A DNA stretch of 64,000 bases, taken from the NCBI GenBank assembly GCA_943736015.1, contig OX031065.1:47408992-47472991 (forward strand). The letters run 5' to 3'. The position numbers and the translations under genes were made by a program. The DNA is from Tridacna crocea. Its lineage: Eukaryota > Mollusca > Bivalvia > Cardiida > Cardiidae. Below the pieces are notes generated by a model, which was not told the origin of the DNA, did no database searches, and worked only from the letters and a program-made list of their open reading frames with translations. Shown here one piece after another: positions 4,466 to 60,382 of this stretch. Each line of letters starts with the position of its first letter. Position 1 is the first letter of the stretch.

Positions 4466-4694
4466 TTAACCCTTTACCACACGACAAAATTTTAGACCAG
4501 TCTAAATTGAAAGCATTTGCAGACAAAAAAATAAATGCAAGTCAAAAATTGAAATTTGTTATCAGCAAAGTAGAAAACATTGTGGGAAAAGGAGAAAATG
4601 CTGGTTACCAGCATTTTCTCCTTTTCCCACAATGTTTTCAAAAGGCTTCTTTCTCAGGGTCGTTAAAAGTCGGGATTGTGTGGTAAAGAGTTAA
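4466..4694 (+). mobile_element. TH-A copy, full length (reference copy)
   Basis: It is 229 bp between TTAA sites. Order of parts: terminus CCCTTTACCACAC; left unique arm with ATTGAAAGCATTTGCAGAC and TTGAAATTTGTT; palindrome 4569-4633 with 32-base arms around one T; right unique arm AAAGGCTTCTTTCTCAGG; terminus GTGTGGTAAAGAG. The terminal inverted repeat is about 13-17 bp. No protein is encoded. TTAA duplication and CCC termini fit a piggyBac-type non-autonomous element; this is inference, because no piggyBac transposase is in the window. Confidence 0.92.
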
Positions 4695-4703
4695 ACTCTT
4701 CTC

Positions 4704-4932
4704 TTAACCCATTACCACACAATGACGACTTTTGACGCCCCTGAGAAAGAAGCCTTTTGAAAACATAGTGGGAAAAGGAGAAAATGCTGGTAACCAGCAT
4801 TTTCTCCTTTTCCCACAATGTTTTCTACCCTTAGAGAAACAAATTTCAAATTTTCAGCCACTTCTATTTTGTCATCTGCAAATGCTTTCAATTTGGAGAA
4901 GCCTAAAATATTGTCGTTTGGTAATAAATTAA
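4704..4932 (-). mobile_element. TH-A copy, full length, inverted to its neighbour
   Basis: Starts TTAACCCATTACCACAC and ends TTTGGTAATAAATTAA. Only 9 bp separate it from the preceding plus-oriented copy, so the two form a head-to-head pair. Its right part belongs to the tandem duplication 4744-5252. Confidence 0.9.
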
Positions 4933-5252
4933 ACCCTTCAAGTGCCTTTCTCACAACAGTGGCCTCTGCAGCCAGTGAATATCTAAGATCAGACCGCATG
5001 AGAAAGAAGCCTTTTGAAAACATAGTGGGAAAAGGAGAAAATGCTGGTAACCAGCATTTTCTCCTTTTCCCACAATGTTTTCTACCCTCAGACAAACAAG
5101 TTTCAAATTTTGAGCCACTTTTGTCGTTTGCAAATGCTTTCAATTTGGAGAAGCCTAAAATATTGTCGTTTGGTAATGAGTTAAACCCTTCAAGTGCCTT
5201 TCTCACAATAGTGGCCTCTGCAGCCAGTGAAGATCTGAGATCAGACTGCATG
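4744..5252. repeat. Tandem duplication, about 255 bp unit, two copies
   Basis: Unit 1 is about 4744-5000 and unit 2 about 5001-5252. Each begins AGAAAGAAGCCTTTTG inside a TH element and ends in host-like flank AGATCAGACYGCATG. The flank between (GTGGCCTCTGCAGCCAGTGA) is present in both. Units differ by small indels and point changes, so the event is not recent. Confidence 0.85.
5000..5184 (-). mobile_element. TH-A copy made by tandem duplication
   Basis: It lacks the left terminus because the duplication breakpoint falls in the CTGAGAAAGAAG arm. The right end TTTGGTAATGAGTTAA is intact, so it arose by duplication and not by its own transposition. Interval 5253-5480 has no recognised feature. 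Confidence 0.85.
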
Positions 5253-5480
5253 TTTACTGCAGACTGACCAGTTGTCTATGCTAACCACTCTGTAGAGACA
5301 CTGTGTCCTGTAGGATTTGAAATGCAACTACTTTTCTATTCTTTTTGACAGAAAACTTCAGTTTTCTTTACTTCCCACTAATCCACTGAGCATCAAAAGA
5401 TTTCATTGTGATTGAGCTATATTGGTTGTTTGCTTTGCACTAATCAGCAGAGAAGCAAAAGATGATGGTCAAGTTGATAT

Positions 5481-5607
5481 TTAACCCTTTACCTCTTGAC
5501 AAAATTCTAGACCTGTCTGAACTGAAAACATTTGCAGATGACAGTTTCAACGTGGTCCATTTGAAATGGTTTTTCTTTGAATGGGTAGAAAACATTGTGG
5601 GAAAATT
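5481..5607 (+). mobile_element. TH-A2 left half
   Basis: TTAACCCTTTACC and the A2 segment (GATGACAGTTTCAACGTGG) run to GTGGGAAAATTG. There the sequence switches, inside the palindrome, to a K-type hairpin. The right half is missing. Confidence 0.75.
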
Positions 5608-5616
5608 GCGGGAAGT

Positions 5617-5672
5617 GTTGTGTCCGATCAGCCTACACACTCTGCTCAGGCTAATCTGGAATGACACTTTTC
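5617..5672. repeat. K hairpin
   Basis: GATCAGCCTACACA and CTGCTCAGGCTAATCTGG form an imperfect stem flanked by GTGTTGTGTC and GACACTTTTC. It resembles the other K copies at 5948 and 63431. Confidence 0.5.
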
Positions 5673-5695
5673 CTCTTTATGTAATTTGCTGTCTA

Positions 5696-5924
5696 TTATC
5701 CCTTTACTCCAAAGATACTCATTTCTACACATTTCTTCTGGGAGCCTTTGGAAAACATTGTGGCAAAAGGTGAAATTGCTCGTGACAAGCAATTTCACCT
5801 TTTGCCACAATGTTTTCTATGTTATCAAAAGGTGTCATATACATGTAAGAAACGGCTTCATCCTTGCTGTTATTTAGGGTCAATTAGAGATACCATAGAA
5901 ATGCCTTATGAGGTAAAGGGTTAA
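5696..5924 (-). mobile_element. TH-B copy, near full length
   Basis: It ends GAGGTAAAGGGTTAA. The left TTAA reads TTAT. The core has GCTCGTGACAAGC, a one-base mismatch across the stem. Confidence 0.85.
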
Positions 5925-5947
5925 AGCACAAAATCTAATGTAGTCAT

Positions 5948-6013
5948 AAAGTGCCGCCTCCGATTAGCTTGTACGGACTGCACAAGCTTACCCACAAGAC
6001 GACACTTTACACA
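5948..6013. repeat. K hairpin
   Basis: CTCCGATTAGCTTGTACGG / CTGCACAAGCTTACCC is flanked by AAAGTGCCGC and GACGACACTTTAC, giving nested inverted repeats. Confidence 0.55.
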
Positions 6014-6070
6014 AATGTCTGAATATCCCTTTTTGCCTGTTGAAAGCCATGTGTATGTACCACCTCCATT

Positions 6071-6844
6071 TTAAAGGTGGGTATTTAAAATTTTTACATC
6101 TCATCAAATGAAAAAATATACATATCACTGATATTCATATAAAAAAAATAATACAAATCATCAATAATTAAGAATCATAAAATTACAAAAAAAAATTTTT
6201 TTGATGGTGTTCCCTTAACCCTTTACCCCATAAGGCATATCTCTGGTATCTGTAATTGACCATAAAATACAACAAGGATGAAGCAGTTTCTTACGTGTAT
6301 ATGACACCTTTTGATAGCATAGAAAACATTGTGGCAAAAGGTGAAATTGCTCGTCACGAGCAATTTCACCTTTTGCTACAATGTTTTCCAAAGGCTCCCA
6401 CAAGCAATGCGTAGAAATGAGTATCTATGGAGTAAAGGGTTAAAAGGCTATGTAGCCTCTTAAGGTATTTTTAGATTTCGCGCCAAAAACCAATAAAGCA
6501 TATTGGGAATTTCATGTGACTGGTACGTGACTCATAAGGCTTAAATTCCATTACATAACAAACATTTAATAATTATTTTCCATAATGTCTTCTTCGGACG
6601 CTATGTTTGAAACTTCATCTGTTTATTCCTGTATGTAAATGAGCGAATTGATCATCTAATAATAGGATGTGTCTCCTGTTGGTGTCAACCTGGGCCGTAG
6701 TAAATCACTAATTTCTCGTGTTGTCGGATGGTTTTAAACTACTGGGGTTTTATGAATGAAAATTAATAGGCTTTGGGAGTGTAAGGATGATTTTTTTGCA
6801 TTTTTGTAAAATTTTCGACCCAAAATCTGAAGTGCCACCTTTAA
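6071..6844 (-). mobile_element. C element, minus copy, with nested TH-B
   Basis: It is bounded by TTAAAGGTGG at 6071 and CCACCTTTAA at 6834-6844. After removing the nested TH-B (6215-6443) it is about 550 bp. It shares its right TTAA with the plus copy that follows, so the two copies are perfectly abutted in inverse orientation. Confidence 0.85.
6215..6443 (+). mobile_element. TH-B copy nested in a C element
   Basis: Full length, 229 bp, with TTAA at both ends. The core GCTCGTCACGAGC is perfect. It interrupts C about 145 bp from the end and is therefore younger than that C copy. Confidence 0.9.
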
Positions 6845-7376
6845 AGGTGGCCCTTCAGAAAATTTTACAAAAATACAAAAAAATTATCCTTATACTCCCA
6901 AAGTCGTGTAATTTTCATTCATAAAACCCCATTAGTCGAAAACCATTCGACAACAACAGAAATAAGAGATTTACTACAGCCCAGGTCGACACTGAAGGGA
7001 AACACCATCTATTTTTACATCAGCTACTCACTCATTTACATATTGGAAATATATAGAAGAAGCTTCAAACGTAACATTCATAGTTCTAGACATTTGGAAA
7101 ATAATTACATGTTTGTTATGTTATGGAATTTAAGAGTAAATAGTCACATGCTACTCACTTAACCTTCCCACAATGCTTTTTTTATTTTTGGCGGAAAATC
7201 TAAAAATAGCCTAAGAGGCTACGTAGCCTTTTAAGGGAATACCACTAAAAAAATTTTTTGGGGAAACTTTATGATTCTTGATTACTGATGAATTGTATTG
7301 TTTTTTCATCTAAATTTCAGTGGTACATATATTTTTAAATTTGGTGTGATGTGAAAATTCTAAATACCCACCTTTA
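6841..7376 (+). mobile_element. C element, plus copy
   Basis: It is 536 bp from TTAAAGGTGGCCCTTCAG to ACCCACCTTTAA. Shared landmarks with 44519 and 60560: CTTATACTCCCAAAG, CATAAAACCCC, CTAAAAATAGCC and AGGCTACGTAGCC. The outer TTAA with AGGTGG termini suggests a second TTAA-targeting family. No coding frame is seen. Confidence 0.85.
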
Positions 7377-7736
7377 AATGGAAGGAGCATGAAAATAGTG
7401 TTCTTTAATTATTCAGGAAAAAAGTTTGTATACATAAATTATGTACCTCTCACTAACTCTGTCCAATGTTCATCTCAAGCTTGTCTCAATCTTGTGTTTA
7501 ACACCACTTTCAGCAGTATACCAGTTACGTCGTGGTAACTTCATACCTGTTTGCCCACTTTCTAGGTTTCGTCAGGCATACCAAAGGGCTCTGTCGCGTC
7601 ATTCTCCAGGATACGCCCATGGATACTACAGTGAAGAACACAAACAAAACCTCTAAATAACAAATCTGGAAATATGTTGGCCATGTCGTCTGTAAGTAAA
7701 TAAGATAATTGACTTGTGCATTGGCAAAAAGGGGGC
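7377..7736. other. Stretch without recognised gene
   Basis: The open frames at 7441-7656 (+) and 7525-7755 (-) overlap and have no recognisable domain. I see no repeat from the families described here. Confidence 0.4.
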
Positions 7737-7969
7737 TTAACTCTTTACCACACAATCCCGACTTTTAACGACCCTGAAAAAGAAGCCTTTTGAAAACATT
7801 GTCGGAAAAGGAGAAAATGCTGGGAAGCCAGCATTTTCTCCTTTGCCTACATTGTTTTCTATCCTTTTCAAACTAAATTTCAATTTTTCAGTCACATTTA
7901 TAAGTATAGTCGTCTGCAAATTCTTTGAATTTGGACCAGACTAAAATTTTGTCGTTTGGTAAAAGTTAA
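7737..7969 (-). mobile_element. TH-A copy, full length
   Basis: TTAACTCTTTACCACAC to TTTGGTAAAAGTTAA. The loop reads GCTGGGAAGCCAGC, where inner bases are changed on both arms relative to the reference. Confidence 0.88.
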
Positions 7970-8090
7970 TGCATCTCTTAGATACATGATACTATCCCAA
8001 GTCAATTGTGAATATATCGGAGCCACTTTTTTAAATAATTGACTTAATCATGCGGTAGAAAACCGACCGATAATGAAAAGTTTCAGCCAA

Positions 8091-8131
8091 AGTCAGCTTT
8101 TGGGACTGCACAGGCTGACCAGGGTCGATAT
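8091..8131. repeat. K-like hairpin fragment
   Basis: GTCAGCTTTTGGGACTGCAC followed by AGGCTGACC resembles half of the K stem. It lies inside the frame 8073-8333, which I regard as non-coding. Confidence 0.35.
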
Positions 8132-8398
8132 TATTAGCAGATGCATGAAGTCTCCTTTTCACAGAGCATGGCTCATATATAAGGGACAAACTCTCTACAA
8201 GACAGCACTTAATGTTGTTAGGGTTGTTCTAGTTGAAAGAATTCATGGAAAACAAATGCTGTTCAAATATGGGATTGTTCCTGTTCACAGTGTTACAGAC
8301 CACTCCTTCATGTATGGCTTTGCCCTAATTTAAATACAATACCTATCAACTGTGCTAGGGAGATATCTCTTTAGCTCAGTGGTTATGGTATTGGTCTT

Positions 8399-8627
8399 TT
8401 AACTCTTTACCACACGACAAAATTTTAGACTGGTACAAATTGAAAGCATTTCCAGACGACAAAATAAAAGTGACTGAAAAATTGAAAATTGTTCTAGGAA
8501 GGGTAGAAAACACTGTGGGAAAAGGACAAAATGCTGGTTACCAGCATTTTCTCCTTTTCCTACAGTGTTTTCGAAAGGCTTATTTCTCAGGGGCGTCAAA
8601 AGTAGGGATTGTGTGGTAATGGGTTAA
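8399..8627 (+). mobile_element. TH-A copy nested in SINE S1
   Basis: 229 bp, TTAA at both ends, inserted directly after GTATTGGTCTT of the SINE. The S1 copy near 9380 has one TTAA at this position and no element. The core shows paired change CACTG/CAGTG. Confidence 0.93.
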
Positions 8628-8777
8628 ACCTTGAAATACAAGGAAATTTGTCTGCATGGGTTCGAATCCGGCCAGATACGCTTTGTATTTCTTGCGAACT
8701 TTCATGCTTTATAAGAGAGAGGCTCGTCTGGGATTGGCCATTGAGCCATTAATCCCATTTGTTGTCGAAAAACGGAC

Positions 8778-9001
8778 TTAACCCTTTCCCAAACAATCCC
8801 TGGTTTTTACGGGTCTGGAATAGTAGCCTTTTGAAAACTTTGTGGGAAAAGGAGAAAATGCTGGTAACCAGCATTTTCTCCTTTTCCCACAATGCTACCT
8901 ATCATAGACAGAAATAATCTTTTCAGCAAGAGTTGAATTGTCGTCTGCAAATGCTTTCAGTTTGGTCTAGTGCAAAAGTTTGTCGTTTGGGAAAGAGTTA
9001 A
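8778..9001 (-). mobile_element. TH-A3 copy nested in SINE S1
   Basis: Ends are TTAACCCTTTCCCAAAC and TTGGGAAAGAGTTAA. The A3 arm is TCCCTGGTTTTTACGGGTC. It splits the S1 tail between AAAAACGGAC and GTTTTTGAGTAATC. Confidence 0.9.
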
Positions 9002-9035
9002 GGTTTTTGAGTAATCAATAAATGATAATTAAAGA

Positions 9036-9480
9036 GGGAGAGTGGTATGGGACACCACTGCTTCATGCATTGCTTTGTCCAGATTTAACCTTTTACCACA
9101 TAAGAACATTTCAGACTGATCCAAACTGAAAGCATTTGCAGTCGACACAATTCTATATGACTCAAAAAATGAAACTTGTTTCCAGCAGGGCAGAAAACAT
9201 TGTGGGAAAAGGAGAAAATGCTGGTTACCAGCATTTTCTCCTTTTCCCATTATGTTTTCAAAAGGCTTCTTTTTCAGGGTTGTGAAAACCAGGGATTGTT
9301 TGGGAAAGGGTTAAATACAATACCTAGTAGCTGTGTTCGAGAGATATCTCCTTAGGTCAGTGGTTATAGTATTGGCCTTTTAAACTTTTAAAAACAAGGA
9401 TATTTGTCTGCATGGGTTCCAATCCTGCCAAATGCAGTTTGCATTTCAGCTATGCATTTGTTGCGAACTTTCATGTTCAT
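9036..9480 (+). repeat. SINE S1 with one nested TH-A
   Basis: Head 9036-9084 (CACCACTGCTTCATGC), body 9315-9480 with TTAGGTCAGTGGTTATAG and GGTTCCAATCC. It stands head-to-tail behind the previous S1 copy. Near 9380 it has the empty TTAA site corresponding to the insertion at 8399. Confidence 0.75.
9085..9314 (+). mobile_element. TH-A copy nested in SINE S1
   Basis: TTAA ends, 230 bp, with A3-like right terminus TTTGGGAAAGGG. It interrupts the SINE between CCAGAT and ATACAATACC; the unfilled form (GGTTTAAATACAATACC) is present at 8325-8342 and 29710-29727. Confidence 0.92.
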
Positions 9481-10331
9481 AGGAACCGATTTTCAAAATG
9501 TGCATGAACGATGAAAAACACAGATGATTGTCCCAATCATAGGCTCTGGATCAGACACTGTGACGACATTCTATGTTGTGTGTGAGGCAAGATTACCCCA
9601 ACAAATGTTGAGGAAATTCGAAGCCAAAACGTCATCTACAGGCACAGGTGTGACAGGTGCAACCAAATCAGTTCATCTCAGTTTTGTACAGTCATCAAAA
9701 GTGTCCGGCAATAAAGCCAATTTTTATGTTATTATCAAGACATTGTTACAAAAGTTCCTAAATAAGAAGTTTCAAAGTAAGTCTTGGTTAAATTTTGAAA
9801 TGTGTTGTTGTTGTTGTTCATGAAATATGTTCCGTAAAAACATTTATCAGGGTTCGACATTACCTTGTTTTTCAACTGTTTTTAGCTTTAGGACTCTGCT
9901 TCTCCCCGATCAGCTATTATTATTTTATTTTAGAGTTATGCAAGCTTGGCATATTGTACACTCGTTCACTCTGTTGTCTACGTAAACATCTAAGCGTCAA
10001 AATGAAACTACGGTATTCCAAGAAAAAGAGCTAGACATAGGAAGTTTTTGCTTAAAAGTCAAAAACTCAGAAAAAATTATATTTAACAATCAGGTTAAAA
10101 TTTATGACATATCCTTGATGAAAAATAGCCCTTGGACTTCGGTCTACTAAATCTATTTTGGGTTCATTTTGGTTTTTCCACTGAAAATATTGACTACCGC
10201 GCATGCAAGTTTGACTTTCTGTAGGAGTTATTACTAAATTGTCTTTTGTTGAACAAAACTACAAATCATGTAAGCGATCTTTTATGAAGAACATGCATGA
10301 TGGGTCGCTATTCGTTACTTATGCCAAGCAT
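9481..10331. other. Stretch without recognised gene
   Basis: Open frames at 9524-9823 and 9795-10034 (+) have no domain I recognise. The first ends in a TGTTGT microsatellite run that gives a poly-Cys tail, so it is unlikely to be a gene. No family repeats are seen. Confidence 0.4.
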
Positions 10332-10560
10332 TTAACTCTTTACCAAACGACAAAATTTTAGACTGGTCCAAATTGAAAGCATTTGCAGACGACAAAATAA
10401 AAGTTATTGAAAATTTGAAATTTGTTTTGGGAAGTGTAGAAAACATTGTTGGAAAAGGAGAAAATGCTGGTTACCAGCATTTTCTCCTTTTCCAACAATG
10501 TTTTCAAAAGACTTCTTTCTAAGGGTCGTTAAAAGTAGGGATTGTGTGGTAAAGAGTTAA
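10332..10560 (+). mobile_element. TH-A copy, full length
   Basis: 229 bp with both TTAA. The core carries a fully compensated change: GTTGG on the left arm and CCAAC on the right where the reference has GTGGG and CCCAC. The stem remains perfect. Confidence 0.93.
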
Positions 10561-14286: not shown

Positions 14287-14512
14287 TTTCCCTTTACCAC
14301 ACTGCAGAATTTTAGACCAGACCAAATTGAAAGCATTTGCAGACGACAATTTCATAGCAGCTCAAATGACATGTTTCTTTGATAGGTTAGAAAACATTCT
14401 GGGAAAAGGAGAAAATGCTGGTTACCAGCATTTTCTCCTTTTCCCAGAATGTTTTCAAAAGGCTTCTTCCTCGGGATAGTCAAATGTCGTCATTGTGTGG
14501 TAAAGGAATAAT
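14287..14512 (+). mobile_element. TH-A2 copy, near full length
   Basis: The left end is CCCTTTACCACAC without intact TTAA; the right end is GTGTGGTAAAGGAATAATT. The core carries a compensated change, ATTCTGG/CCAGAAT in place of ATTGTGG/CCACAAT, with a perfect stem. Confidence 0.88.
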
Positions 14513-15984: not shown

Positions 15985-16460
15985 ATTTTATTTCATGCTT
16001 TCAGGTAGGATATCAAGAAATAGCAGTGAAAATATTTTTCGATATTACATTGGTACGACCAATGAAAATACCGATTTTCATGTTCTTGTTGCATAGGTAA
16101 ATTACCAGTGCCTCACAACCAGATGGAAATATGACACCATGTACCTTACATTTCTCCCACTTGATGTAATATTGTAATGCATTGCCATGCGGGAGGGGTA
16201 CGCCACCGGGAATACCAACAAGAACAGTTGTACTGGATTTTTATAAAGCTCCTCCCAGACAGGGTTAAAAGCATGAAATAAATAGAATATTTGTTTCTTT
16301 TGGTGAAAGATCGAAATTTATTTCATCTTGTGAACACCATTGGTAATATTTTCACTTGTGGCTGTGCCACTGACGAAAATATTATTGAAGGTGCTCACTC
16401 GATGAAAGAAATTTCGATCTTTCACCAAAGAAAACAAATATCCTCTATTTGTTCTATATT
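15985..16460 (+). mobile_element. D element: compound double palindrome
   Basis: First hairpin: TTTATTTCATGCTTT (about 15986) mirrors AAAGCATGAAATAAA (about 16268). Second hairpin: GTGAAAGATCGAAATTT (about 16302) mirrors AAATTTCGATCTTTCAC (about 16409). A related copy is at 46858-47235 with the same order of parts. The frame 16291-16488 lies within it and is not a gene. Confidence 0.75.
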
Positions 16461-20770: not shown

Positions 20771-20999
20771 TTAACTCATTACCACACAAGAAAACTTTAG
20801 ACTGGTCCAAATTGAAAGCATTTGCAGACGACAAAAGAAAGGTGTCTCAAAAATAGAAATATGCTCTGGTAAGGGTAGAAAACACTGTGGGAAAAGGAGA
20901 AAATGCTGGTTACCAGCATTTTCTCCTTTTCCCACAGTGTTTTCAAAAGGCGTCTTTCTCAGGGGCGTCAAAAGTAGGGATTGTGTGGTAATGGGTTAA
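20771..20999 (+). mobile_element. TH-A copy, full length
   Basis: 229 bp, both TTAA. The stem is perfect with compensated CACTGTGGG/CCCACAGTG. The right TTAA is shared with a truncated copy. Confidence 0.93.
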
Positions 21000-21467: not shown

Positions 21468-21966
21468 TTGTACGGTCATGGCAGGGGACTTGGAAACTTG
21501 TTCACGGCTGTGGTTAATCGTGTCGCCCCGAGCCGAAGGCAAGGTGGCGACATGATTCACCACAGCCATGAACAAGTTTCCAAGTCCCCTGCCACCTGAT
21601 CGTACAACGAATTATTATACTGCAAAGATTTACCCTTTCAAAGCGTGTTAAGCGAAATTTTCCTGTTTTTTTATTTCACGAATTGAGTATGCTGACGAAA
21701 TAGAAATTCTCTTCTGAGTGCCCCAATTCAATGAAAACTGACGTCACTGGAAACTGACGTCACTAAAACGTGCAGTTTGGTGCATAACTGTGCAGTCTGG
21801 TGATCGATCGACGCCGCCATTTCGGATGTTGTGTTGCACGTGTAGTGATGTTTACGGGGCACTCAAAAAAGAAACTGGTTTTACATGGTCTTTGCCAGGG
21901 GTCATGATATATGTTCTCAGAATGTGAACCAATCAGATCACGAGAAATTTCTTTGCAGTATAATAA
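21468..21966 (+). mobile_element. G element copy 1: palindrome plus inverted-repeat unit
   Basis: 21468-21609 is a palindrome (GGGGACTTGGAAACTTGTTC mirrored by GAACAAGTTTCCAAGTCCCC) with an unpaired centre GAGCCGAAGGCAAGG. It is followed by a 355-bp unit with ends TTATTATACTGCAAAG (21612) and CTTTGCAGTATAATAA (21951). GACGTCACTGGAAACTGACGTCAC is a short internal repeat. A second copy lies inverted at 28205-28640. The short frames here are not genes. Confidence 0.75.
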
Positions 21967-23481: not shown

Positions 23482-23705
23482 CCCTTTCCCAAATAACAAA
23501 TTTTAAACTGTCCCAAACTCAAAAAGTTTGCAGATGACAATTTTGAATTTGATGAGAATGGCAGAAAGTTTTCCGATAGGCTAGAAAACACTGTGGGAAA
23601 AGGAGAAATTGCTCGTTACAAGCAATTTATCCTTTTCCCACAGTGTTTTCTAAAGACTTGTACTGTCGACACGTTAAAATCAGGGCTTGTTTGGGAAAGA
23701 GTTAC
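23478..23705 (+). mobile_element. TH copy with a core intermediate between A and B
   Basis: It shares its left TTAA with the previous copy. The outer stem is A-type (CACTGTGGGAAAAGGAG) but the inner stem is B-type (AAATTGCTCGTTACAAGCAATTT). The right terminus is TTTGGGAAAGAGTTAC. The left arm is distinct from both. Confidence 0.85.
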
Positions 23706-28204: not shown

Positions 28205-28640
28205 AGGTAACGAGTAATGAGTTTCCCCTTCAGGAGCCCTGTATACATGGCTACATTATCAACACAACATCCAAAATGATGGCGTCAATCAAAATTAACA
28301 TAAAGATTATGCAAAAAGCTTCATGTTTTAGCACATATTGCCAAGGTTTCCCTGACGTCAATTTTCCCTGAATTGGGGCACTCAAAAGGGAAATTCTACT
28401 TTGCATCAAGTTTTTCAACCAAAAATCAGGTAAAATCCACTAGACAAACATTGGAATGGTAAAACTTTGCAGTGTAATAAATTCCTTGTGCGGTCAGGTG
28501 GCAGAGGAAGTGGAAACTTGTTCAAGGCTATGGTGAATCATGTTGCCCTGAGCCGAAGGCAAAGTGCCTTCGGCTCAGGGTGACATAATTCACCACAGCC
28601 ATGAACAAGTTTCCAAGTCCCCTACCACCTGACTTTACAA
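28205..28640 (-). mobile_element. G element copy 2, with longer palindrome
   Basis: Inverted relative to copy 1: CAACACAACATCC (about 28260), GAATTGGGGCACTC (about 28370), CTTTGCAGTGTAATAA (28466), then a palindrome 28493-28640. Here the centre is itself palindromic (CCCTGAGCCGAAGGCA / TGCCTTCGGCTCAGGG), whereas copy 1 has the same block unpaired. Confidence 0.75.
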
Positions 28641-28756
28641 CTAATAATTTAGTAGATCCCTTATTCAGTGGTGATGCAAAAGGTTACTAATGCAAGAGTC
28701 GCATGTTTGAATGTTGACTCAGCTAAAATCATTAAAACATTTATGGATCAATCCGA

Positions 28757-30554: not shown

Positions 30555-30783
30555 TTAACCCATTACCACACAATCCCTACTTTTGATGCCCCTGAGAAAG
30601 AAGCCTTTAGAAAACATTGTGGGAAAAGGAGAAAATGCTGGTAACCAGCATTTTCTCCTTTTCCCACAATGTTTTCTACCTTTCACAAAACAAATTTCAA
30701 ATTTTCGGTCACTTTTATTTTGTCGTCTGCAAATGCTTTCAATTTGGACAAACCTAAAATTTTGTCGTTTGGTAATGAGTTAA
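30555..30783 (-). mobile_element. TH-A copy flanking a coding exon, inverted partner
   Basis: 229 bp, TTAACCCATTACCACAC to TTTGGTAATGAGTTAA. It starts 47 bp from the exon acceptor. It shares TTAA 30780-30783 with the next copy. Confidence 0.93.
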
Positions 30784-36430: not shown

Positions 36431-36659
36431 TTAACCCTTTACTTCATAGATACTCATTTCTACGCATTGCTTGTAGGAGCCTTTTGAAAACATTGTGGCA
36501 AAAGGTGAAATTGCTCGTGACGAGCAATTTCACTTTTTGTCACAATGTTTTCTATGCTATCAAAAGGTGTCATATACACATAAGAAATGGCTTCATCCTT
36601 GCTGTTATTTAGGGTCAATTTGAGTTACCTTAGAAATGCCTTATGGGGTAAAAGGTTAA
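36431..36659 (-). mobile_element. TH-B copy, full length
   Basis: 229 bp, TTAACCCTTTACTTCATAG to GGGGTAAAAGGTTAA. The core GCTCGTGACGAGC is a perfect stem with central change C to G. Its right TTAA is shared with a TH-A copy. Confidence 0.92.
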
Positions 36660-45618: not shown

Positions 45619-45845
45619 AAGAACTCTTTATCAAACAATGAAATTCAAACACAACTGAAAGCATTTGCAGACCATAAAATTAATGTTATTCAGACACTGA
45701 AATTTACTTTTGGGCAAGTAGAAAACATTGTGGGGAAAAGGTGAAAATGCTGGTTACCAGCATTTTCTCCTTTTCCCCACAATGTTTTCAAAAGCTTTCT
45801 TTCTCAAGGTCGTGAAAACTCAGGATGGTGCGGTTAAGGGTAAAG
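45619..45845 (+). mobile_element. TH-A copy, diverged termini
   Basis: GAACTCTTTATCAAAC to GTGCGGTTAAGGGT. The core has one extra G on the left arm and one extra C on the right (GTGGGGAAAA / TTTTCCCCAC), a compensated insertion. Confidence 0.8.
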
Positions 45846-46857: not shown

Positions 46858-47235
46858 AATTATTTCATGCTTTGCAGTAGGATATCAAGAAAAATTTTTT
46901 CGATCTTACACTGGTATGACCAGTGAAAATACCGATTTTCATGTTCTTGTTGCCCAGGTTAATTGCAAGTTGCTATGCGGGAGGGGTGCGCCACGGAGAA
47001 TAACTGTACTGGATTTTGATAACGCTCCTTCCAGAAAGGGTTAAAAGCATGAAATAAATAGAATATTTGTTTTTTTAGGTGAAGGATCGAAATTTATTTT
47101 ATCTCGTGAACACCATCGGTAATATTTTCACTTGTGGCTGCACCACTCGTGAAAATATTACCAATGATGTTCACTTGATGAAATAAGTTTCTATCTTTCA
47201 CAGAAAAAAACAAATACCCGGTATTCTCTATTTCT
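46858..47235 (+). mobile_element. D element, second copy
   Basis: TTATTTCATGCTTTGCAG, GAAAATACCGATTTTCATG, GGGAGGGGTGCGCCAC, AAAGCATGAAATAAATAG, then the second hairpin (GTAATATTTTCAC / GTGAAAATATTAC) in the same order as 15985-16460. About 100 bp shorter. Confidence 0.75.
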
Positions 47236-47798: not shown

Positions 47799-48027
47799 TT
47801 CAACTCTTTACCACACGACAAAATTTTAGACTGGTTCAAATTGAAAGCATTTGCAGACGACAAAATGAAGCTGACTGAAAAAATGAAATTTGTTTTAGGA
47901 AGGGTAGAAAACACTGTGGGAAAAGGAGAAAATGCTGGTTACCAGCATTTTCTCCTTTTCCTACAGTGTTTTCAAAAGGCTTACTTCTCAGGGCGTCAAA
48001 AGTAGGGATTGTGTGGTAATGGGTTAA
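47799..48027 (+). mobile_element. TH-A copy, full length
   Basis: 229 bp; left TTCA for TTAA; right GTGTGGTAATGGGTTAA. The stem has compensated CACTG/CAGTG. Confidence 0.9.
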
Positions 48028-48662: not shown

Positions 48663-48858
48663 CCCGTATTCACCAACCATTCTTGAGAATATTCTTAGTT
48701 TTATTCTCCTAGATTTTCTACGTTTGTAAGTAACACAATTTCTGATTGGCTAAACCATTCGGTTTAGCCAATCAGAAGTTGTGTTGCTTACAAATGTAGA
48801 AAATTCTGGAGAATAGGACAAAGAACGTTCTTAAGAATGGTTGGTGAATACGGGTCCT
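48663..48858. mobile_element. I element, palindrome about 195 bp
   Basis: CCCGTATTCACCAACCATTC mirrored by GAATGGTTGGTGAATACGGG; the centre is TGGCTAAACC / GGTTTAGCCA. Nearly the whole element is stem. A sister copy is at 63655-63840. Confidence 0.85.
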
Positions 48859-49471: not shown

Positions 49472-49699
49472 TTAACCCTTTCCCAAACAAGAAACTCTTG
49501 GACCAGACCAATTTGAAAGCATTTGCAGTCGACAATTCAACTCTTGCTGAATAGATGATTTCTGTCTATGATAGGGTAGAAAACATTGTGGGAAAAGGAG
49601 AAAATGCTGGTTACCAGCATTTTCTCCTTTTCCCACAATGTTTTCAAAAGGCTACTATTCCAGACCCGTAAAAACCAGGGATTGTTGGGAAAGGGTTAA
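49472..49699 (+). mobile_element. TH-A3 copy, full length
   Basis: 228 bp, TTAACCCTTTCCCAAAC to TTGGGAAAGGGTTAA; perfect core. The left TTAA is shared with an older right-end fragment. Confidence 0.93.
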
Positions 49700-50170: not shown

Positions 50171-50400
50171 ATTATCACTTTATCACGTAATCTGGAGTTT
50201 TAACAACCTTATAGAAGAAGGCTTTTGCAAACATTGCGGACAGTGGAGAAAATGCCAGTAACTGGCATTTTCTCCTTTACCCACAATGTTTTCTATCCTT
50301 CCAATCCAAGAATGAATTCCAATATTCGAGTTAAATTTATTTTGTTGTCTGCAAATTTTTAAAGCTTTCAACCTTGACAGTCAAAAGTTTTGCCCTTTTT
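50171..50400 (-). mobile_element. TH-A copy, diverged but with a compensated loop
   Basis: CTTTATCACGTAATCTGG; core AAAATGCCAGTAACTGGCATTTT-type: two adjacent stem positions are changed on both arms relative to the reference. Right arm GTTGTCTGCAAATTT. Confidence 0.75.
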
Positions 50401-50814: not shown

Positions 50815-51308
50815 TTAACTCATAACCAAAAAACAAAATTCTAGATTTATCCAAATCAAAAGCATTTGTAGACCCAAAAAAGCATCCTCGGATACCGCGG
50901 GGTCTCCCTATTTGCTACGCTACATCGACCCTGGGACAATTGACTGATAAAACTTTAAATCAGTCGCCGAAAATCGATACGAAACGTCATAGCGTACAGT
51001 ACACCCGCCCATCACAAAATGATGATGGAACCAATGAAAAGCCAGCATTCGGCCAGCGGTAAAGCGAGGGAAATACAACTAATTGTCCCAGGGGTCGATG
51101 TAGCGTAGCAAATAGGGAGATCCTGGGGTATCCGAGGATGCAAAAAAGGAAGTGACTGAAAATTTGAATTTGTTTTGTTAAGGGTAGAAAACATTGTGGG
51201 AAGAGGAGAAAATGCTAGTTACCAGCTTTTTCTCCTCTTCCCACAATATTTTCTAAAGGCTTCTTTCTCAGGGCCATAAAAAGCAGGGATTAAGTGGCAA
51301 TGGGTTAA
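50815..51308 (+). mobile_element. TH-A copy interrupted by fold-back element J
   Basis: TTAACTCATAACC and left arm to 50881, then J, then AAGTGACTGAAAATTTG to GTGGCAATGGGTTAA. The core has compensated GGGAAGAGG/CCTCTTCCC. Confidence 0.88.
50882..51141. mobile_element. J fold-back element, 260 bp
   Basis: Terminal inverted repeats of about 60 bp: GCATCCTCGGATACCGCGG at left, and its near-complement CCTGGGGTATCCGAGGATGC at right; ATTTGCTACGCTACATCGAC pairs with GTCGATGTAGCGTAGCAAAT. AAAAAA on both sides may be the target duplication. No coding; single copy seen. Confidence 0.88.
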
Positions 51309-52096: not shown

Positions 52097-52126
52097 CTAT
52101 CTGTATAAGTAGTACAATATAAGTTC

Positions 52127-54290: not shown

Positions 54291-54348
54291 TGTCAGAGTA
54301 AATCTCAGATCAAACAGCATACATTATTGTGATAGGTATCTCACAGAT

Positions 54349-54893: not shown

Positions 54894-55028
54894 TGACCCT
54901 TTCCCAAACAATACCTAGTTCTTATGACCCAGGGGAAAAAGCCTTCTGAAAACATTTTGGGAAAAGAAGTAAATGCTGGTAACCAGCATTTTCTCCTATT
55001 TCCATGATGTTTTCTACTCTTCTATAGT
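54894..55028 (-). mobile_element. TH-A3 copy, right part missing
   Basis: TTGACCCTTTCCCAAAC through a near-complete core to TTTTCTACTCTTC; the right arm is absent. Confidence 0.75.
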
Positions 55029-55073
55029 CAAGTAATTTAGGATGCGCCAGTACCTTGCACTATCCTCAGTAAC

Positions 55074-55302
55074 TTAACCCTTTACTAAACAATCCCTGGT
55101 TTTTATGACCCTGAGAAAGAAGGCTTTAGAAAACAGTGTGGGAAAAGGAGAAAATGCTGGTAACCAGCATTTTCTCCTTTTCCCACAATGTTTTCTACCC
55201 TTCACCAAACAAATTTCAAATTCTCAGTCACTTTTATTTTGTTGTCTGCAAACGCTTTCAATTTGGATAAGCCTAAAATCTTGTCTTTTGGAAATGAGTT
55301 AA
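55074..55302 (-). mobile_element. TH-A copy, full length
   Basis: 229 bp, TTAACCCTTTACTAAAC to TTTGGAAATGAGTTAA. Interval 55303-55499 is unassigned. Confidence 0.9.
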
Positions 55303-55499
55303 CCAAGCAGACTTCAAAGGGCATTGCCCATAATGTTAGAACTACTAGTTGTATCTATAAATAGACATAAAATCAATCAACTCGGATTAAATCTAGACTA
55401 ATAAAGTCTTACTGATGCACAAATATGACAGTTTACTGACCCCGATATCCAACTCTATGGGGTATACCCATATGAAATTCATTTTCAATACCTGCATTT

Positions 55500-55740
55500 A
55501 TTTACTCTTTACTGATCAATCCTAGGTTTTCATGACACTATGGAAAAGCGCTTTCAGGAGAAACTGAAACAATGTGGTCGCAAGGTTTTTCTGCATGATT
55601 GTCCGCAATGTTTTTGTCCTTCCTCGGACAGATGTCATCATTCTAGTCATAATAACAGTTTTGTCACGTACCAACTTAAGGATTGCATGTTGAACTAAAA
55701 TTAACCCCCCCACCCCCACACACACAGACACACACACAAC
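55500..55740 (-). repeat. Old TH-like remnant followed by CA microsatellite
   Basis: TACTCTTTACTGATCAATCC and ACAATGTGG/CCGCAATG hint at an old TH copy. 55703-55738 is a C-run with (CA)n. Confidence 0.4.
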
Positions 55741-55764
55741 CCTGGTGAGTGAAGGAGAAAATAC

Positions 55765-55966
55765 TTAACTCCTTACCAATTGACAAAATTGTAGACCAGT
55801 TGGTCCAAATTGAAAACAACTTGCAGACAATAAATTAAGCGTAACTCAAAAAATGAAATTGTAGGCAAAGGAGAAATTGCTGGTTACCAGCATTTTCTCC
55901 TCTTCTTGCAATGTTTTCAAGTCTTTCTTTCTCAGAGTTATTAAAAGTCTGGATGGTGTGGTAAAG
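55765..55966 (+). mobile_element. TH-A copy, left stem arm deleted
   Basis: TTAACTCCTTACC; AAATTGTAGGCAAAGGAG shows loss of GGGTAGAAAACAT; end GTGTGGTAAAG. Confidence 0.75.
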
Positions 55967-56127
55967 AAAAACAAAATGTTGCACAAATAAGGTACCTTTT
56001 TTTCTTTGACTGGAAAGAAGACATTGGGGTAAAAAGGAGATAATGCTGGATACCAACTTTTTATCCTTTTCCTACAATATTTTCAGAAAGCCTCTCTGTG
56101 AGGTTCATGAACACTCAGGGATTATGC
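55967..56127 (+). mobile_element. TH-A2-like fragment
   Basis: TTCTTTGACTGGAAAGAAGAC, core GAGATAATGCTGGATACC, right flank GAAAGCCTCTC and GGGATTATGC. Confidence 0.55.
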
Positions 56128-56208
56128 TATGTAAATAGGTTCCCATTATACAGGAAGTTCATTGACAAGGTCAAGGGGTGAACAGTCTGACATGTTTTCT
56201 CCCAGCGA

Positions 56209-56395
56209 CTCTTTACAGTGGAACAAAATTCTAGACGCATCCGAATTGGTAGCATTTACAGTAGACACATAAAATGTTGCTAAAATTACAGGGGTTGTCA
56301 AAAAACAGTAAAGTGAAATAAGGGACATTGAGAAAAGTGTTGTATACCAGCATTTTCCTTTCACCAACCAATGTTTTTTCCCAGGAATTTGACAT
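56209..56395 (+). mobile_element. TH-A copy, very old
   Basis: GACTCTTTACAGTGG, CTAGACGCATCCGAATTGG, TACCAGCATTTTCCTTTCACC. A short inverted pair GGAATTTGACATTCTATA / GAATGTCAAATTCC lies downstream (56389, 56495). Confidence 0.45.
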
Positions 56396-56564
56396 TCTAT
56401 AACTAAAGTAAATTGTAAAATAACGGGAAAAAAAATCTCCCCTATATAATATAAACTATTTTTTCTTTTCATATTTTATCATTTATTTTGGTCAAAGAAT
56501 GTCAAATTCCTGTGGTTTTCTGTTGTTAACTTTTGTTTGTTTAAAAACGCAGTATTGTAGGGTA

Positions 56565-56816
56565 AATGGTTACATACTCTGGTTATTTGGGATTCCTGGA
56601 TCGGCCATTTTTTTCCCCGGCCAATTTCTTTCTGAGTATTGACGATAGTCATTGCAACACAATTAATTCCTCTCCGACTGCTGGTTATTGTTTAGACAAA
56701 AACAGCCAGCGGCTTGGAAAGAACATCATACAGAGTACTTGTAAAAGAGACTAAAGGTGAGTTAGGATAGGTGCACCGGTCACCGTGATATAACTGAAAT
56801 AATGTTGAAAACAGTG
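56565..56816 (+). repeat. SINE S3, plus strand
   Basis: ATTGACGATAGTCATTGCAAC, CCAGCGGCTTGGAAAG, GGTGCACCGGTCACC and tail TAACTGAAATAATGTTGAAA. The head is decayed. It ends exactly at the TTAA of the next TH copy. Confidence 0.6.
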
Positions 56817-57033
56817 TTAACTCATTACCACAAAATCCCTACTTTTGACGACCCTGACTGAGAAAGTAGCCTTTAGAAAACATTGTGTGAAAAGCAGAAA
56901 ATGCTGGTAACCAGCATTTTCTCCTTTTCCCACAATGTTTTTTACATTGCACAAAACAAATTTCGTATTTTCAGTCACTTTTATTCTTTTGATTAGGACA
57001 AGCCTAAAATATTGTCGTTTAGTAATGAGTTAA
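56817..57033 (-). mobile_element. TH-A copy, full length
   Basis: 217 bp, TTAACTCATTACCACAA to TTTAGTAATGAGTTAA. The TGTCGTCTGCAAATGC block is deleted. Confidence 0.88.
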
Positions 57034-57107
57034 ATAACATACATTAAATCAACCTATTGTTATACAAACATAAGGGGTCATACTGGAATTTGTTTATTAT
57101 GAATAAT

Positions 57108-57320
57108 CCACCAGGTCTGGAAGCTCAGTGGTAAACTTAAGATCTGACTCCTGACCTAGTGGCTGTGGGATCAATACCTGGTTGAGGCAAATGTTTTTTC
57201 CTACAATTTTCTCCCTTTCATATCTGATGCATGTGAAAGAGTAGCCAGTGGCTTGGAAAAAAGGTTGTGTCAGCACTGGTGCGAGAAAGTCAGGAAACAC
57301 AGATGTAGGTGTTCTCTCCA
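57108..57320 (+). repeat. SINE S2, plus strand
   Basis: Head GGAAGCTCAGTGGTAAAC (A-box-like) and GGGATCAATACCTGG (B-box-like), body TTCCTACAATTTTCTCCC, tail GCCAGTGGCTTGGAAAA and AGCACTGGTGCGAGAAAG. Confidence 0.6.
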
Positions 57321-57357
57321 GCCTCTAAGTCAACTTGAGCTGTTAAAACAGAATTAA

Positions 57358-57583
57358 TTAACCCTTTCCGAAACAACAAACTTTTGGACTGAACCAAATT
57401 GAAAGCATTTGCAGACGACAATTCAACTCTTGCTGAAAAGATGATTTCTGTCTATGATAGTGTAGAAAACATTGTGGGAAAAGGAGAAAATGCTGGTTAC
57501 CAGCATTTTCTCCTTTTCCCATGTTTTCAAAAGGCTTCTATTCCAGACCAGTAAAAACCAGGGATTGTTTGGGAAAGGGTTAA
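57358..57583 (+). mobile_element. TH-A3 copy, full length
   Basis: 226 bp, TTAACCCTTTCCGAAAC to TTGGGAAAGGGTTAA; CACAA missing from the right stem arm. Confidence 0.92.
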
Positions 57584-57734
57584 GGAATGAAGAGAATTTT
57601 GATTTTTTTCATAGAGGTATGAAAAAAAACAATGACAGTGTATGAAACTGTGAAAGGGTTTAATACAAAAGTTTGATTAGGTTTTTTTTTTCATATCTTC
57701 ATGAAAATAAATTTTTTTCTTCATTCCCTATAAT

Positions 57735-57905
57735 TTAACCCTTTACTCCATAGATACTCATTTCTATGCATTATATTGTGGCAAAAGGTAAAATTGCTTG
57801 TCACAAGCAATTTCACCTTTTGTCACAATGTTTTCTATGCTATCAAAAGGTGTCATATACACATAAGAAACAGCTTCATCCTTGCCTTATGGGGTAAAGG
57901 GTTAA
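57735..57905 (-). mobile_element. TH-B copy, shortened
   Basis: 171 bp with both TTAA. Flank blocks are deleted on both sides. The core GCTTGTCACAAGC is a perfect stem with compensated C-G to T-A change against other B copies. Confidence 0.88.
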
Positions 57906-58486
57906 TATAGACAACATACGCCCACAGAAATAATTCAAACTGCATTCATTTTCTTTAGTTTTTAAATGTAAGCTTGGAGTTTCTAAAGTTTCATGTATCA
58001 GACACAGTTGCTGTTTATTTCGGATTTCAGCAATTGTGTTAGATCTATTTAATTTCGGGAATAAACTAGGGACCGAATAAAGTATGCAGTCAGCCAGTGT
58101 AACTATGAATTTGTAATGACAGTGAGAAAGGAAGGCATTCGAAATCAAAGCAAAAAAGAGAAAGTGCTGGTGACCAAGAAAGTTTTCTGCCCTTCAAACA
58201 ACAAATTTCCAGAAATCACTAAGAGCAGATGTTCTGAGCAAACTTTACCTTGTCAAATAAACAATTCTGAAATGAAAAAGCAAACCAAGTTCTTTTTTGA
58301 ATGTATGGTTGCTGATCATATTAGCCAGAGCCCAAACTATTCCAATATTGTTTTTGCAAAAAAAAAAATTTCATCTGACAATAAAAATTAACAGTGATCA
58401 GTAAAATTCAAATCTATGGCTTCACAGAGCCAGCACTGTGAAGTCAATCAAGGAAGAAAAGTGTGACTGGAAACCACAACCCCCCA
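57906..58486. other. Stretch without recognised gene
   Basis: 58119-58210 is a poor TH-A scrap (AGAAAGTGCTGGTGACC, TTTTCTGCCCTTCAAAC). The two frames at 57876-58391 are not supported as exons. Confidence 0.4.
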
Positions 58487-58699
58487 TTAACTCATTACCA
58501 GACAACAAAATTTTAGACTTGTCCAAATCGAAAGCATCTGCAGACGACAAAATAAAAGTGATTGAAATTTGTTTTATGAAGAAAACATTGTGGGAAAAGG
58601 AGACCAGCATGTTCAGTTTTTTCACCTTTTCCTACAATATTTTCTACAGGCTTCTTTCTAAGAGTCATCAAAAGTAGGGATTGTGTGGTAATGGGTTAA
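58487..58699 (+). mobile_element. TH-A copy, palindrome damaged
   Basis: TTAACTCATTACCAGAC to GTGTGGTAATGGGTTAA; the core has lost AAAATGCTGGTT on the left arm. Interval 58700-58981 is unassigned (frame 58742-58984 has no domain). Confidence 0.82.
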
Positions 58700-58981
58700 T
58701 AATAGTCACAAAACCAAGCGCTAAAAACCAGAATTCAAGTTTTGGCACCAAGCCAGCTTAGCAACCAACTACAATCAATGCTGGGATTTCTCAATGATCG
58801 ATTATCAGAATTGGTAGCCAAAACCAAACAACTTTTGACTATAGTCAATCATCTGCCCACCACTAGTTACAATACTACTCCCCCTCCTGATTTTTCTAGA
58901 GTAACCAACTCCCCCTCTAGTACCTATGGACTGCTGGTGCCGCTATTCCTTGTTCACCAATTGACCTCATCATCAATGAAA

Positions 58982-59093
58982 TAAATCAAGGGAGAAAAAT
59001 GAGCCCGACGTGGGTCTCAAACCTATGACCCCTGGAACACTAAAACCACATGTCTGCCAACTGACCTAGGCGGGCATCTGGTCATATTATATT
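58982..59093 (-). repeat. tRNA-related SINE fragment
   Basis: Minus strand: CCTAGGTCAGTTGGCAGAC (A-box-like) and GGTTTGAGACCCAC (B-box-like), about 45 nt apart. No acceptor stem; not called as a tRNA gene. Confidence 0.5.
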
Positions 59094-59105
59094 AGGGGAG
59101 TGTAT

Positions 59106-59158
59106 CAATCAAGATCAGACTGCACAAAAATGCAATCTTGTCTTTGATAGATAGGCTA
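59106..59158. repeat. F hairpin, diverged
   Basis: CAAGATCAGACTGCAC / ATGCAATCTTGTCTTTG with several mismatches and ATTCCGCAAAATATTCC following. Confidence 0.5.
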
Positions 59159-59476
59159 TTCCGCAAAATATTCCAGCCAAAATGACTAAGTTGTTTCATC
59201 CAATGTCCTGGCCAAGTTGAATTAAATAAGTATAAATCTATTGCGTGACAGTAAGTGTCAAGGTGAGAGGTGAGATACAGCCTTCATGCATTTCTCTACC
59301 TTATAAACCCTCTCCCCCCCCTCCCCCCCCACTAGTAGGCACTACCAAATTAGTCCAACCATATCTAGGTAATGCTTAGTCTTTCCGTATAAAGGGCGGT
59401 TTCATGACAAGAAAAAAATCGCTAATAAAACATAGAAAAAAACCTTACCAGCAAGTACGAAGTCATGCCAGCATGC
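59159..59476. other. Stretch downstream of the dynein-like exon
   Basis: It contains a C-run region (59310-59331). No polyadenylation signal for the minus strand is clear. Confidence 0.35.
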
Positions 59477-59708
59477 CTACTGCTTTTCCTCTGTTTTTTT
59501 TTTTTCAGACATCCGTAAACATCCTAACAGGATGAGCTCCGATTGTTTCCGAAAATACAACAACAACAACTTGCTCTCTACAATGGAGGTTATAGCACCT
59601 CCCGCGTAAACATCCCAAACAGTTCCATCACTTCTCTGCGTCATGTGGTATTTGATATCTGAAAGCAGTCCAGGTATTTCACACTGTGTTTCAAATGCTT
59701 TGACAGCT
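59477..59708 (-). CDS. Dynein light chain-like protein, last exon
   Basis: Minus strand; acceptor TTTTGGTTCACAG before base 59708, stop TAG at 59477. It encodes AVKAFETQCEIPGLLSDIKY, then MTQRSDGTVWDVYAGGAITS and VESKLLLLYFRKQSELILL. Order and character match the LC8/DNAL4 fold: an amphipathic helix, a T-V-W...GG strand region, and the E-x-K-hydrophobic-YF C-terminal strands. Such proteins dimerise and bind dynein intermediate chains or other partners; DNAL4 types are axonemal. An A-run near the 3-prime end (59492-59505) makes the last residues uncertain. A second possible acceptor (TTTTAACAG at about 59754) would add 15 codons. Upstream exons were not found. Confidence 0.5.
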
Positions 59709-59754
59709 CTGTGAACCAAAATGAAGACAGCAAATGAACTGTCGGTATCCTGTT

Positions 59755-59846
59755 AAAACGTCCCACAGTCAAAACGTCCCACTTTGGTTAAAACGTCCCC
59801 TATAATTTCCATTCCAAATTTGTTAAAATGCCCCCTTTAGACGTCC
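59755..59846. repeat. Irregular repeats of AAAACGTCCC
   Basis: TTAAAACGTCCCACAG, CAAAACGTCCCACTTTGG, TTAAAACGTCCCCT, TTAAAATGCCCCC and AGACGTCCCC occur at irregular spacing, just upstream of the dynein-like exon on the minus strand. Confidence 0.65.
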
Positions 59847-60153
59847 CCGTATATCTTATTCAAGTTACTAGTCTAATCTTGTATGATCGTTTCAGAAAAC
59901 TTTCAAATTTGATGTTTAACATTATGCTATTGTCATGTATTGTTACAGGTCGTTGAATTTTAACCCTTATCCTGCCGAACTTAAAGTTATAAGAGGCACA
60001 ACATTAATTTTCAAGAAGCCTTAAGACATTCAGCGTAGTTGATATGACCTGAATCAATATTCGATATTATTGCATAGTTCTTCAATTCCAGACTACCCTT
60101 ATGCATATTGATCCTTTTTTTTTACTATTTAAGCCAATTAGTATCAAGATTGT
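59847..60153. other. Stretch without recognised gene
   Basis: AT-rich; no exon or family repeat recognised. Confidence 0.4.
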
Positions 60154-60382
60154 TTAACCCTTTCCCAAACAATCCCTGGTTTTTACGGGTCAGAAATAGA
60201 AGCCTTTTGAAAACATTGTGGGAAAAGGAGAAAATGCTGGTAACCAGCATTTTCTCCTTTTCCCACAATGTTTTCTACTCTATCATATAGAAAAATCATC
60301 TTTTTAGCGACTGTTAATTTGTCATCTGCAAAATGCTTTCAGTTTGGTCTGGTCCAAATTTTGCTATTTGGGAAAGGGTTAA
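60154..60382 (-). mobile_element. TH-A3 copy, full length
   Basis: 229 bp, TTAACCCTTTCCCAAAC to TTTGGGAAAGGGTTAA; perfect core. Confidence 0.93.

Follow-up and report, generated by a model that had tools for sequence, protein, structure and literature searches.

The 64-kb stretch of the Tridacna crocea genome analyzed here (contig OX031065.1, positions 47,408,992 to 47,472,991; hereafter "the window", part of a genome of 1.05 Gb in 31 contigs) contains many copies of a 229-bp, TTAA-bounded, piggyBac-like miniature inverted-repeat transposable element (MITE). Centrally, at element positions ~107–173, lies a 67-nt palindrome, TH, made of two 33-nt arms and a 1-nt spacer. An earlier note on this DNA had claimed strict covariation, with every difference in one arm mirrored in the other, and had proposed that either the stem is needed or the arms are copied onto each other. 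We find that the covariation is real and above chance but not strict. The proposed interpretation is partly supported, with a need for matched arms at the level of the source copies fitting better and copying in place being less supported. We regard it as close to an even prospect that a copy needs matched arms, or is strongly helped by them, in producing further copies. The usual view is that MITEs require little apart from their ends, whereas in this family of well over 100,000 copies an internal palindrome ranks with the most conserved parts, and the changes that have spread along with it mostly match between its arms. If pairing is needed, the success of a copy in spreading would depend on an internal DNA structure, and copy numbers this large would let selection on a DNA stem be told from arm copying, a long-standing difficulty with covariation.

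The element is a piggyBac-like MITE carrying a conserved internal module, here palindromic, akin to the CMITEs of corals. Thirteen oriented seeds run from TTAA to TTAA over 224–230 bp, and the consensus of 383 aligned matches is 229 bp long with TTAA at its start and end, although the seeds were picked by a TTAA-containing pattern and the frequency of TTAA is thus not independent. The hallmark of piggyBac-like MITEs is that their ends begin CC[C/T]T after TTAA, as described in part of the text of PMC2872659 (this and the other papers given by PMC number are represented by portions of their text). The ends here are CTCTTTACC or CCCTTTACC, which may be taken as piggyBac-like; compared with the hallmark, CCCTTTAC(C/T) is the right end of family A and both ends of the family B seeds, and CTCTTTACC is the majority left end of family A. 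A length of 229 bp leaves no room for a transposase, and the family is regarded as non-autonomous. The piggyBac transposase family has at least 118 matches genome-wide (e.g., C10:28376412, C18:30428954, C3:66851558, and C4:69349889). Several groups of these matches have equal scores, with open frames 492, 593, or 624 aa long, which would be expected of recent copies.

A profile search of the window and 49 other stretches (358 kb) yielded 481 non-overlapping matches, 308 of them above 90 bits, and TH is complete in 332 of the 383 matches above 60 bits. In 265 of 271 end-to-end copies, at most 19 of the 67 TH columns are missing, and among 240 family A copies whose bodies align well, 205 have T as the spacer. 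A perfect 35-nt core with spacer T occurs 166,719 times genome-wide (83,579 + 83,140). As single-stranded DNA, a perfect TH folds end to end at -37.2 kcal/mol (z -16.6). At the first pair outside the 33-nt arms, 64 of the copies scoring above 120 bits have an A opposite a T on the right, which makes the stem longer, and 163 have A.A.

Each of the nine mirrored changes named in support of strict covariation is present on inspection, the copies being named by their element starts, with TH lying further in. Three of the nine (10332, 14287, and 20771) carry mirrored differences only, whereas six have unmirrored differences as well (two at 8399, one each at 47799 and 45619, three at 50815, and six each at 50171 and 57735). 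Families A and B also differ as described, at four pairs that are all mirrored, judging from the cluster consensus of four B copies aligned to the A profile. The change GCTTG/CAAGC at 57735 is mirrored, but it is explicable by two independent deaminations because a CpG of the B core sits there in both arms. The claim fails in its word "every": the 350 changed pairs in the 85 window copies with a full TH comprise 39 mirrored, 294 single-arm, and 17 changed on both arms to non-complementary bases, and only nine of the 85 copies are without an arm mismatch. Strict covariation is rejected, since single-arm changes dominate both in the window and in the set of 332 copies.

The genome-wide test of paired against unpaired changes that accompanied the claim was run in part, with letters from the 358-kb sample and whole-genome counts at two of the 33 pairs, one of them with a full table. 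The controls were shuffles and slid pairings of the arm columns. In the window, where the test took only the 61 THs without gaps or insertions (57 distinct rows), 41 cells were changed on both sides, compared with 7.5 ± 2.6 in 500 shuffles and 6–16 in the slid controls. In the 332 copies of window and sample, 197 changed pairs are mirrored, 1,138 are single-arm, and 72 are changed on both arms without matching. With the pairing slid, 65–93 both-changed pairs were counted in all, and about 41 mirrored pairs are expected from summed per-pair expectations; these counts include B copies and six repeats of the tandem array L032. L032 (period ~1.67 kb) and L041 (period ~1.64 kb) are tandem arrays of long units with a TH copy in each unit; L032 was dropped for this reason, as was L041 in later tests. 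Also dropped were L001, which overlaps the window, matches at or below 60 bits, and copies with fewer than 30 of the 33 letters in an arm. Tests on family A exclude 24 B-like and third-class copies, and key tests were repeated without the 29 copies retrieved by using a single element as a search query ("query-picked"). After average-product correction in A-like copies, the top 1% of column pairs includes three of the 33 TH pairs and the top 5% includes 11, compared with 0 and 0–3 for slid pairings.

The mirrored excess depends on how many single-arm changes a copy carries. Without query-picked copies, and with the two most frequent A types (25T>C and 21G>T) omitted, the 108 copies with 0–2 single-arm changes hold 14 mirrored changes of 11 kinds where 1.2 are expected, and the 86 copies with 3–5 hold 21 where 7.1 are expected (0/1000 shuffles in both cases). 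The 46 copies with 6–9 single-arm changes have 17 mirrored changes against 13.3 expected, and the 27 copies with 10 or more have 10 against 16.4. Copies with zero single-arm changes hold four in 44, and likewise four in 29 when query-picked copies are left out. Under a simpler expectation, the excess per copy is 0.09 at the start and 0.09–0.22 up to nine single-arm changes, and then is gone. Because the excess is already present in copies with few single-arm changes and absent from old ones, these counts suggest that much of it predates insertion, while single-arm changes accumulate later.

Matched arms could also arise without any need for a stem, if the change of one arm is copied into the other, in the germ line or in the course of transposition, by template switching via the hairpin (quasi-palindrome correction) or by gene conversion between the arms. 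The template-switch process is documented for hairpins and quasi-palindromes in the available portions of PMC8794818, PMC7202029, and PMC3820800. The rise of the mirrored excess from 0.09 to ~0.2 per copy with up to five single-arm changes would fit some copying in young copies. However, the excess does not grow in place with age, being absent from copies with six or more single-arm changes, and mirrored changes are already found in copies that lack single-arm changes altogether. Mirrored changes include transversions as often as single ones do, which is as copying would have it, and the TH at 45721–45789 has one inserted base in both arms, but mirrored insertions and deletions are rare (three, one of them a central deletion, vs. 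146 single-arm in 330 copies, with 41 copies of odd arm length skipped).

Genome-wide counts at single pairs bear on copying in both directions. At pair 14 (G.C), among 35-nt cores that are otherwise perfect, 166,719 copies keep the consensus, 5,542 differ in the left arm alone, 6,514 differ in the right arm alone, and 1,065 differ in both arms, compared with 216.5 under independence; single-arm copies thus make up 92% of those changed. Among the 1,065, 781 are mirrored (579 A.T, 188 T.A, and 14 C.G) and 284 are non-matching. The T.A count includes a small tandem array on C8, where three T.A cores lie at 151-bp spacing in short units (G000:C8:35638712–35639048). Rough expectations, which use single-arm spectra of only 23 and 27 changes from the local sample, are 54 A.T, 31 T.A, 3 C.G, and 128 non-matching. 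The mirrored types are therefore 5–11 times expectation and the non-matching 2.2 times; relative to the non-matching, the mirrored types are still at 2–5 times, with C.G resting on 14 copies only. That all three mirrored types exceed independence is what copying would produce. On the other hand, their ratio of 74:24:2 departs from ~61:35:3, the product of the small-sample single-arm ratio (~50:38:12), a discrepancy weakened in that C.G creates CpGs and lineages multiply. Moreover, one type is dominant at pair 9: of the 273 copies changed on both arms genome-wide, the 32 with letters are 27 C.G, one G.C, no T.A, and four non-matching. At the outer pair 23, 12,799 arms have a non-consensus base with the remainder of the arm perfect, and two adjacent plus/minus pairs are mirrored among the ~100 matches listed.

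The spacer, which a hairpin-mediated process could invert, also speaks partly for copying. Of the 34 spacer changes, 18 are to A, the inverted base, whereas T>A has a share of 34% among changes at T sites of the body (p 0.03) and of 30% among those at T sites of TH (p 0.005); without query-picked copies the figure is 16 of 31 (p 0.06 and 0.03, respectively). However, copies with spacer A hold no more mirrored changes than those with spacer T, at 0.17 per copy each. We consider arm copying somewhat unlikely as the explanation of the matched arms; copying at a low rate or tied to transposition, or compensation at the RNA level, may have occurred.

A need for matched arms in source copies makes a further demand, which is that lineages inherit mirrored rather than single-arm changes. 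The likeness of carriers' bodies was compared with that of divergence-matched random copies, in 227 copies with good bodies and without query-picked copies. None of the 43 single-arm variants found in at least seven copies was body-coherent (smallest p 0.06), whereas two mirrored variants were, 25T>C in 19 copies (p 0.002) and 7A>T in four copies (0/500). Mirrored 21G>T (eight copies) was body-coherent in the larger set, at least five of its copies coming from query-picked loci. Single-arm changes thus look like recurrent mutations after insertion, since none of the common ones marks a body lineage and two mirrored ones do. Body clusters of three or more copies agree with this in part. Apart from the main cluster, five show no change in their TH consensus, among them one of 12 copies with 34 of 162 positions different in the body consensus, and an 8-copy cluster differing at 46 of 162 has three mirrored pairs in TH. 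With the B cluster, the consensus differences in TH come to seven mirrored and two unmirrored (the 20–43% body divergence of diverged clusters is a mean over single copies that includes their own later mutations).

The frequency of variants points the same way. In 107 copies near the A consensus, the ratio of singletons to variants shared by at least three copies is 61:37 in TH and 83:166 in the body (odds ratio 3.3, p 1e-6); a first version with 116 clustered copies gave an odds ratio of 3.1 (p 9e-6). Per site, singletons number 0.92 in TH and 0.64 in the body (without its terminal 16 positions), while shared variants number 0.56 and 1.28, respectively. This suggests that constraint on TH acts at the source and not after insertion. 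A need at the source level accordingly fits better than copying in place because the body-coherent variants are mirrored, the common single-arm ones are scattered, shared TH variants but not singletons are depleted, and mirrored changes occur in copies without a single-arm change.

Founder effects alone, in which a few sources carried mirrored differences by chance and TH is neutral, would also leave mirrored changes in lineages. Mirrored copies do mostly belong to few haplotypes, and subfamily linkage gives many body columns equally strong covariation. Nevertheless, this seems very improbable to us, given the 11 mirrored kinds in copies with 0–2 single-arm changes, the genome-wide excess at pair 14, the depletion of shared TH variants, and the absence of body coherence in all 43 single-arm variants.

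Several observations weigh against a need for matched arms. The lineage-level evidence is thin, consisting of two or three body-coherent mirrored variants together with B and the third haplotype class; mirrored 27C>T and 14G>A (four copies each) and 2G>A (three) are not body-coherent, and 13G>A (five) reaches p 0.026 only. One 3-copy cluster has the two unmirrored consensus differences, with pair 23 mirrored in its member at 14290. On a tree of 251 copies built from bodies only, internal branches carry eight mirrored, two both-changed non-matching, and 64 single-arm changes, several of these changes being reversals, as weak resolution would produce. Of all the results, the internal single-arm changes agree least with a hard filter, and the requirement is for this reason called strong and not absolute. 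Terminal branches carry 35 mirrored and 36 non-matching changes, against 26–39 both-changed in all for slid pairings; the tree is weakly resolved, and changes that are terminal here may be internal genome-wide. Through subfamily linkage, body columns covary as strongly as TH pairs. The terminal repeats of family A also covary, at two of 12 positions (8 and 11 from the first T of TTAA; 52 vs. 25.6 and 13 vs. 2.3 expected), so that mirrored evolution alone is no proof of a stem. The non-matching double changes at pair 14 exceed their expectation as well (284 vs. ~128), which indicates that change rates differ between copies. T>A is the commonest change of the spacer, and its carriers are scattered, with bodies not alike (p 0.52), as hairpin-mediated inversion would give. 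Finally, no autonomous partner with TH was found at the one transposase locus examined of the 118, where there is no TH within 1.5 kb on either side and only one fragment of an A right end.

With these reservations, we infer that the cause is selection on pairing, with the pairing acting as DNA. After insertion, each arm would mutate freely, leaving one-arm mismatches in most copies. Mismatched copies would rarely found new ones, and a mirrored double change that restores matching could found a lineage. As an estimate and not a fitted model, chance double hits at ~33 x 0.0005 per copy and round might reach 0.1 per young copy in a handful of rounds. As the most likely mechanism, a central 67-bp cruciform or hairpin, if extruded, could serve as a hinge in the short, stiff DNA of a 229-bp element, the ends of which the transposase has to join, or could display a structure bound by a transposition factor. 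The more specific proposition, that proliferation depends on the internal palindrome via DNA structure (a cruciform or hairpin hinge) as a requirement in cis beyond the ends, with the decayed copies forming a natural mutational scan, appears unlikely on present evidence.

Pairing could instead act in RNA, if a transcript of the element folds as a hairpin that aids propagation and the mirrored changes are compensatory. Both-side excesses like that of the window THs serve as support for RNA helices. In G.C pairs, right-arm C>T (255) exceeds left-arm G>A (179), which on one strand is the side where G-U would be tolerated (sums that include B copies and the tandem array), but A-T pairs show no matching strand bias in the summed counts. 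The ratio of transitions to transversions among mirrored changes, 19:16 in copies with up to five single-arm changes, is like the 584:546 of single-arm changes and bears no sign of a G-U step. No Rfam family matched in the window at gathering scores. A cut-and-paste DNA element, moreover, needs no RNA form. A requirement at the RNA level is in our view quite improbable.

TH might otherwise consist of identical half-sites for a dimeric DNA-binding protein, the half-sites changing together; for piggyBac, the cysteine-rich domains of the transposase bind palindromes. The ends of piggyBac and piggyBat are alike in this respect, having palindromic sites that are bound by two domains of the transposase dimer according to the portion of PMC11707139 used here. 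The covariation of the family's terminal repeats at two positions would suit such a protein as well. In contrast, the palindromes described there span 14–19 bp near the tips, whereas TH is long, central, and near-perfect in young copies, and the 24 kinds of mirrored change along the arms of copies with up to five single-arm changes fit pairing better than base-specific contacts. We hold the half-site explanation to be decidedly unlikely.

Among open-licence papers on internal palindromes or hairpins in MITEs, only that on coral CMITEs was close. The CMITEs of Acropora are small, TTAA-flanked, piggyBac-like MITE families, which occur in tandem arrays and for which a role in transposition has been suggested (Wang et al., 2010; PMC2872659, in the parts of its text consulted). 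As in the present element, CMITE families with different ends share a strongly conserved internal region (75 nt in corals) that is more conserved than the ends (PMC2872659, same portions). However, the best match between the 60-nt internal consensus of corals (PMC2872659) and family A is 7 nt (E 0.57), and the coral consensus has no match at E 0.01 in the 358 kb of window and sample, so that homology of the internal region was not found. The consulted portions of that paper mention neither a palindrome nor arm covariation, and the word hairpin is absent from its text, whereas TH is a 67-nt palindrome.

Other systems resemble TH in single respects. Bacterial REPINs have palindromic parts. They are also short mobile DNA of high copy number, in different hosts (PMC3116915, in part). 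Template-switch hairpins are alike in that mirrored changes keep the hairpin paired, with copying and compensation debated, but those treated in the available text of PMC8794818 are in RNA genes, while here a mobile element is concerned and the excess lies in copies with few changes, not in old ones. In the coding palindromes of hairworm mitochondria the arms likewise stay identical as the sequence changes, and arm conversion has been considered; nearly all long repeats are perfectly matched there, to judge from the excerpted PMC6649704, whereas most copies here are mismatched.

The copies in the window that were located individually are collected in Table 1.

Table 1. Elements and palindromes (TH) located in the window; positions count from its first letter.
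Feature	Positions	Strand	Remarks
Family A element	4466–4694	+ (strand from left module)	TH 4573–4639 perfect, family consensus
Family A element, subfamily A25 (CACTG/CAGTG)	8399–8627	+	TH 8506–8572, 2 unpaired
Family A element	10332–10560	+	TH 10439–10505, mirrored GTTGG/CCAAC, 0 unpaired
TH of A element (named at 14287)	14390–14456	+	mirrored ATTCTGG/CCAGAAT, 0 unpaired
Family A element, subfamily A25 (CACTG/CAGTG)	20771–20999	+	TH 20878–20944, 0 unpaired
TH, perfect family consensus	30610–30676	-	palindrome reaches 35-nt arms here (30608–30678)
TH with 34-nt arms (element start 45619)	45721–45789	+	G inserted in left arm, C in right; 1 unpaired
TH of A25 element (element start 47799)	47907–47973	+	1 unpaired
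TH, perfect family consensus	49579–49645	+	full-length DNA hairpin fold
TH (named at 50171)	50227–50293	-	two adjacent mirrored changes, 6 unpaired
TH (named at 50815)	51187–51253	+	mirrored GGGAAGAGG/CCTCTTCCC, 3 unpaired
Family B TH	2819–2885	+	
Family B TH	5751–5817	-	one-arm change at CpG
Family B TH	6322–6388	+	
Family B TH	36486–36552	-	
TH of decayed B element (named at 57735)	57769–57835	+ (strand inferred from spacer base)	GCTTG/CAAGC, 6 unpaired
TH of third haplotype class	23584–23650	+	like A25 in the outer arms, partly like B in the inner arms

The window also holds longer inverted repeats. At 4466–4828, two head-to-head family A copies form an inverted repeat with 125-nt arms that are 9 nt apart and 94% complementary. 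Others, with arms of 49–191 nt, lie at 323–482, 6626–7048, 16284–16444, 21479–21594, 28481–28645, 47064–47216, 48663–48854, and 63659–63836. The arm type CTTGGAAACTTGTTCA is common to 21479–21594 and 28481–28645, so at least one more palindromic family seems to be present. A recurring motif of the type GATCAGAC(T/C)GCA occurs at 2356–2396 and near 4985, once as a 41-nt palindrome.

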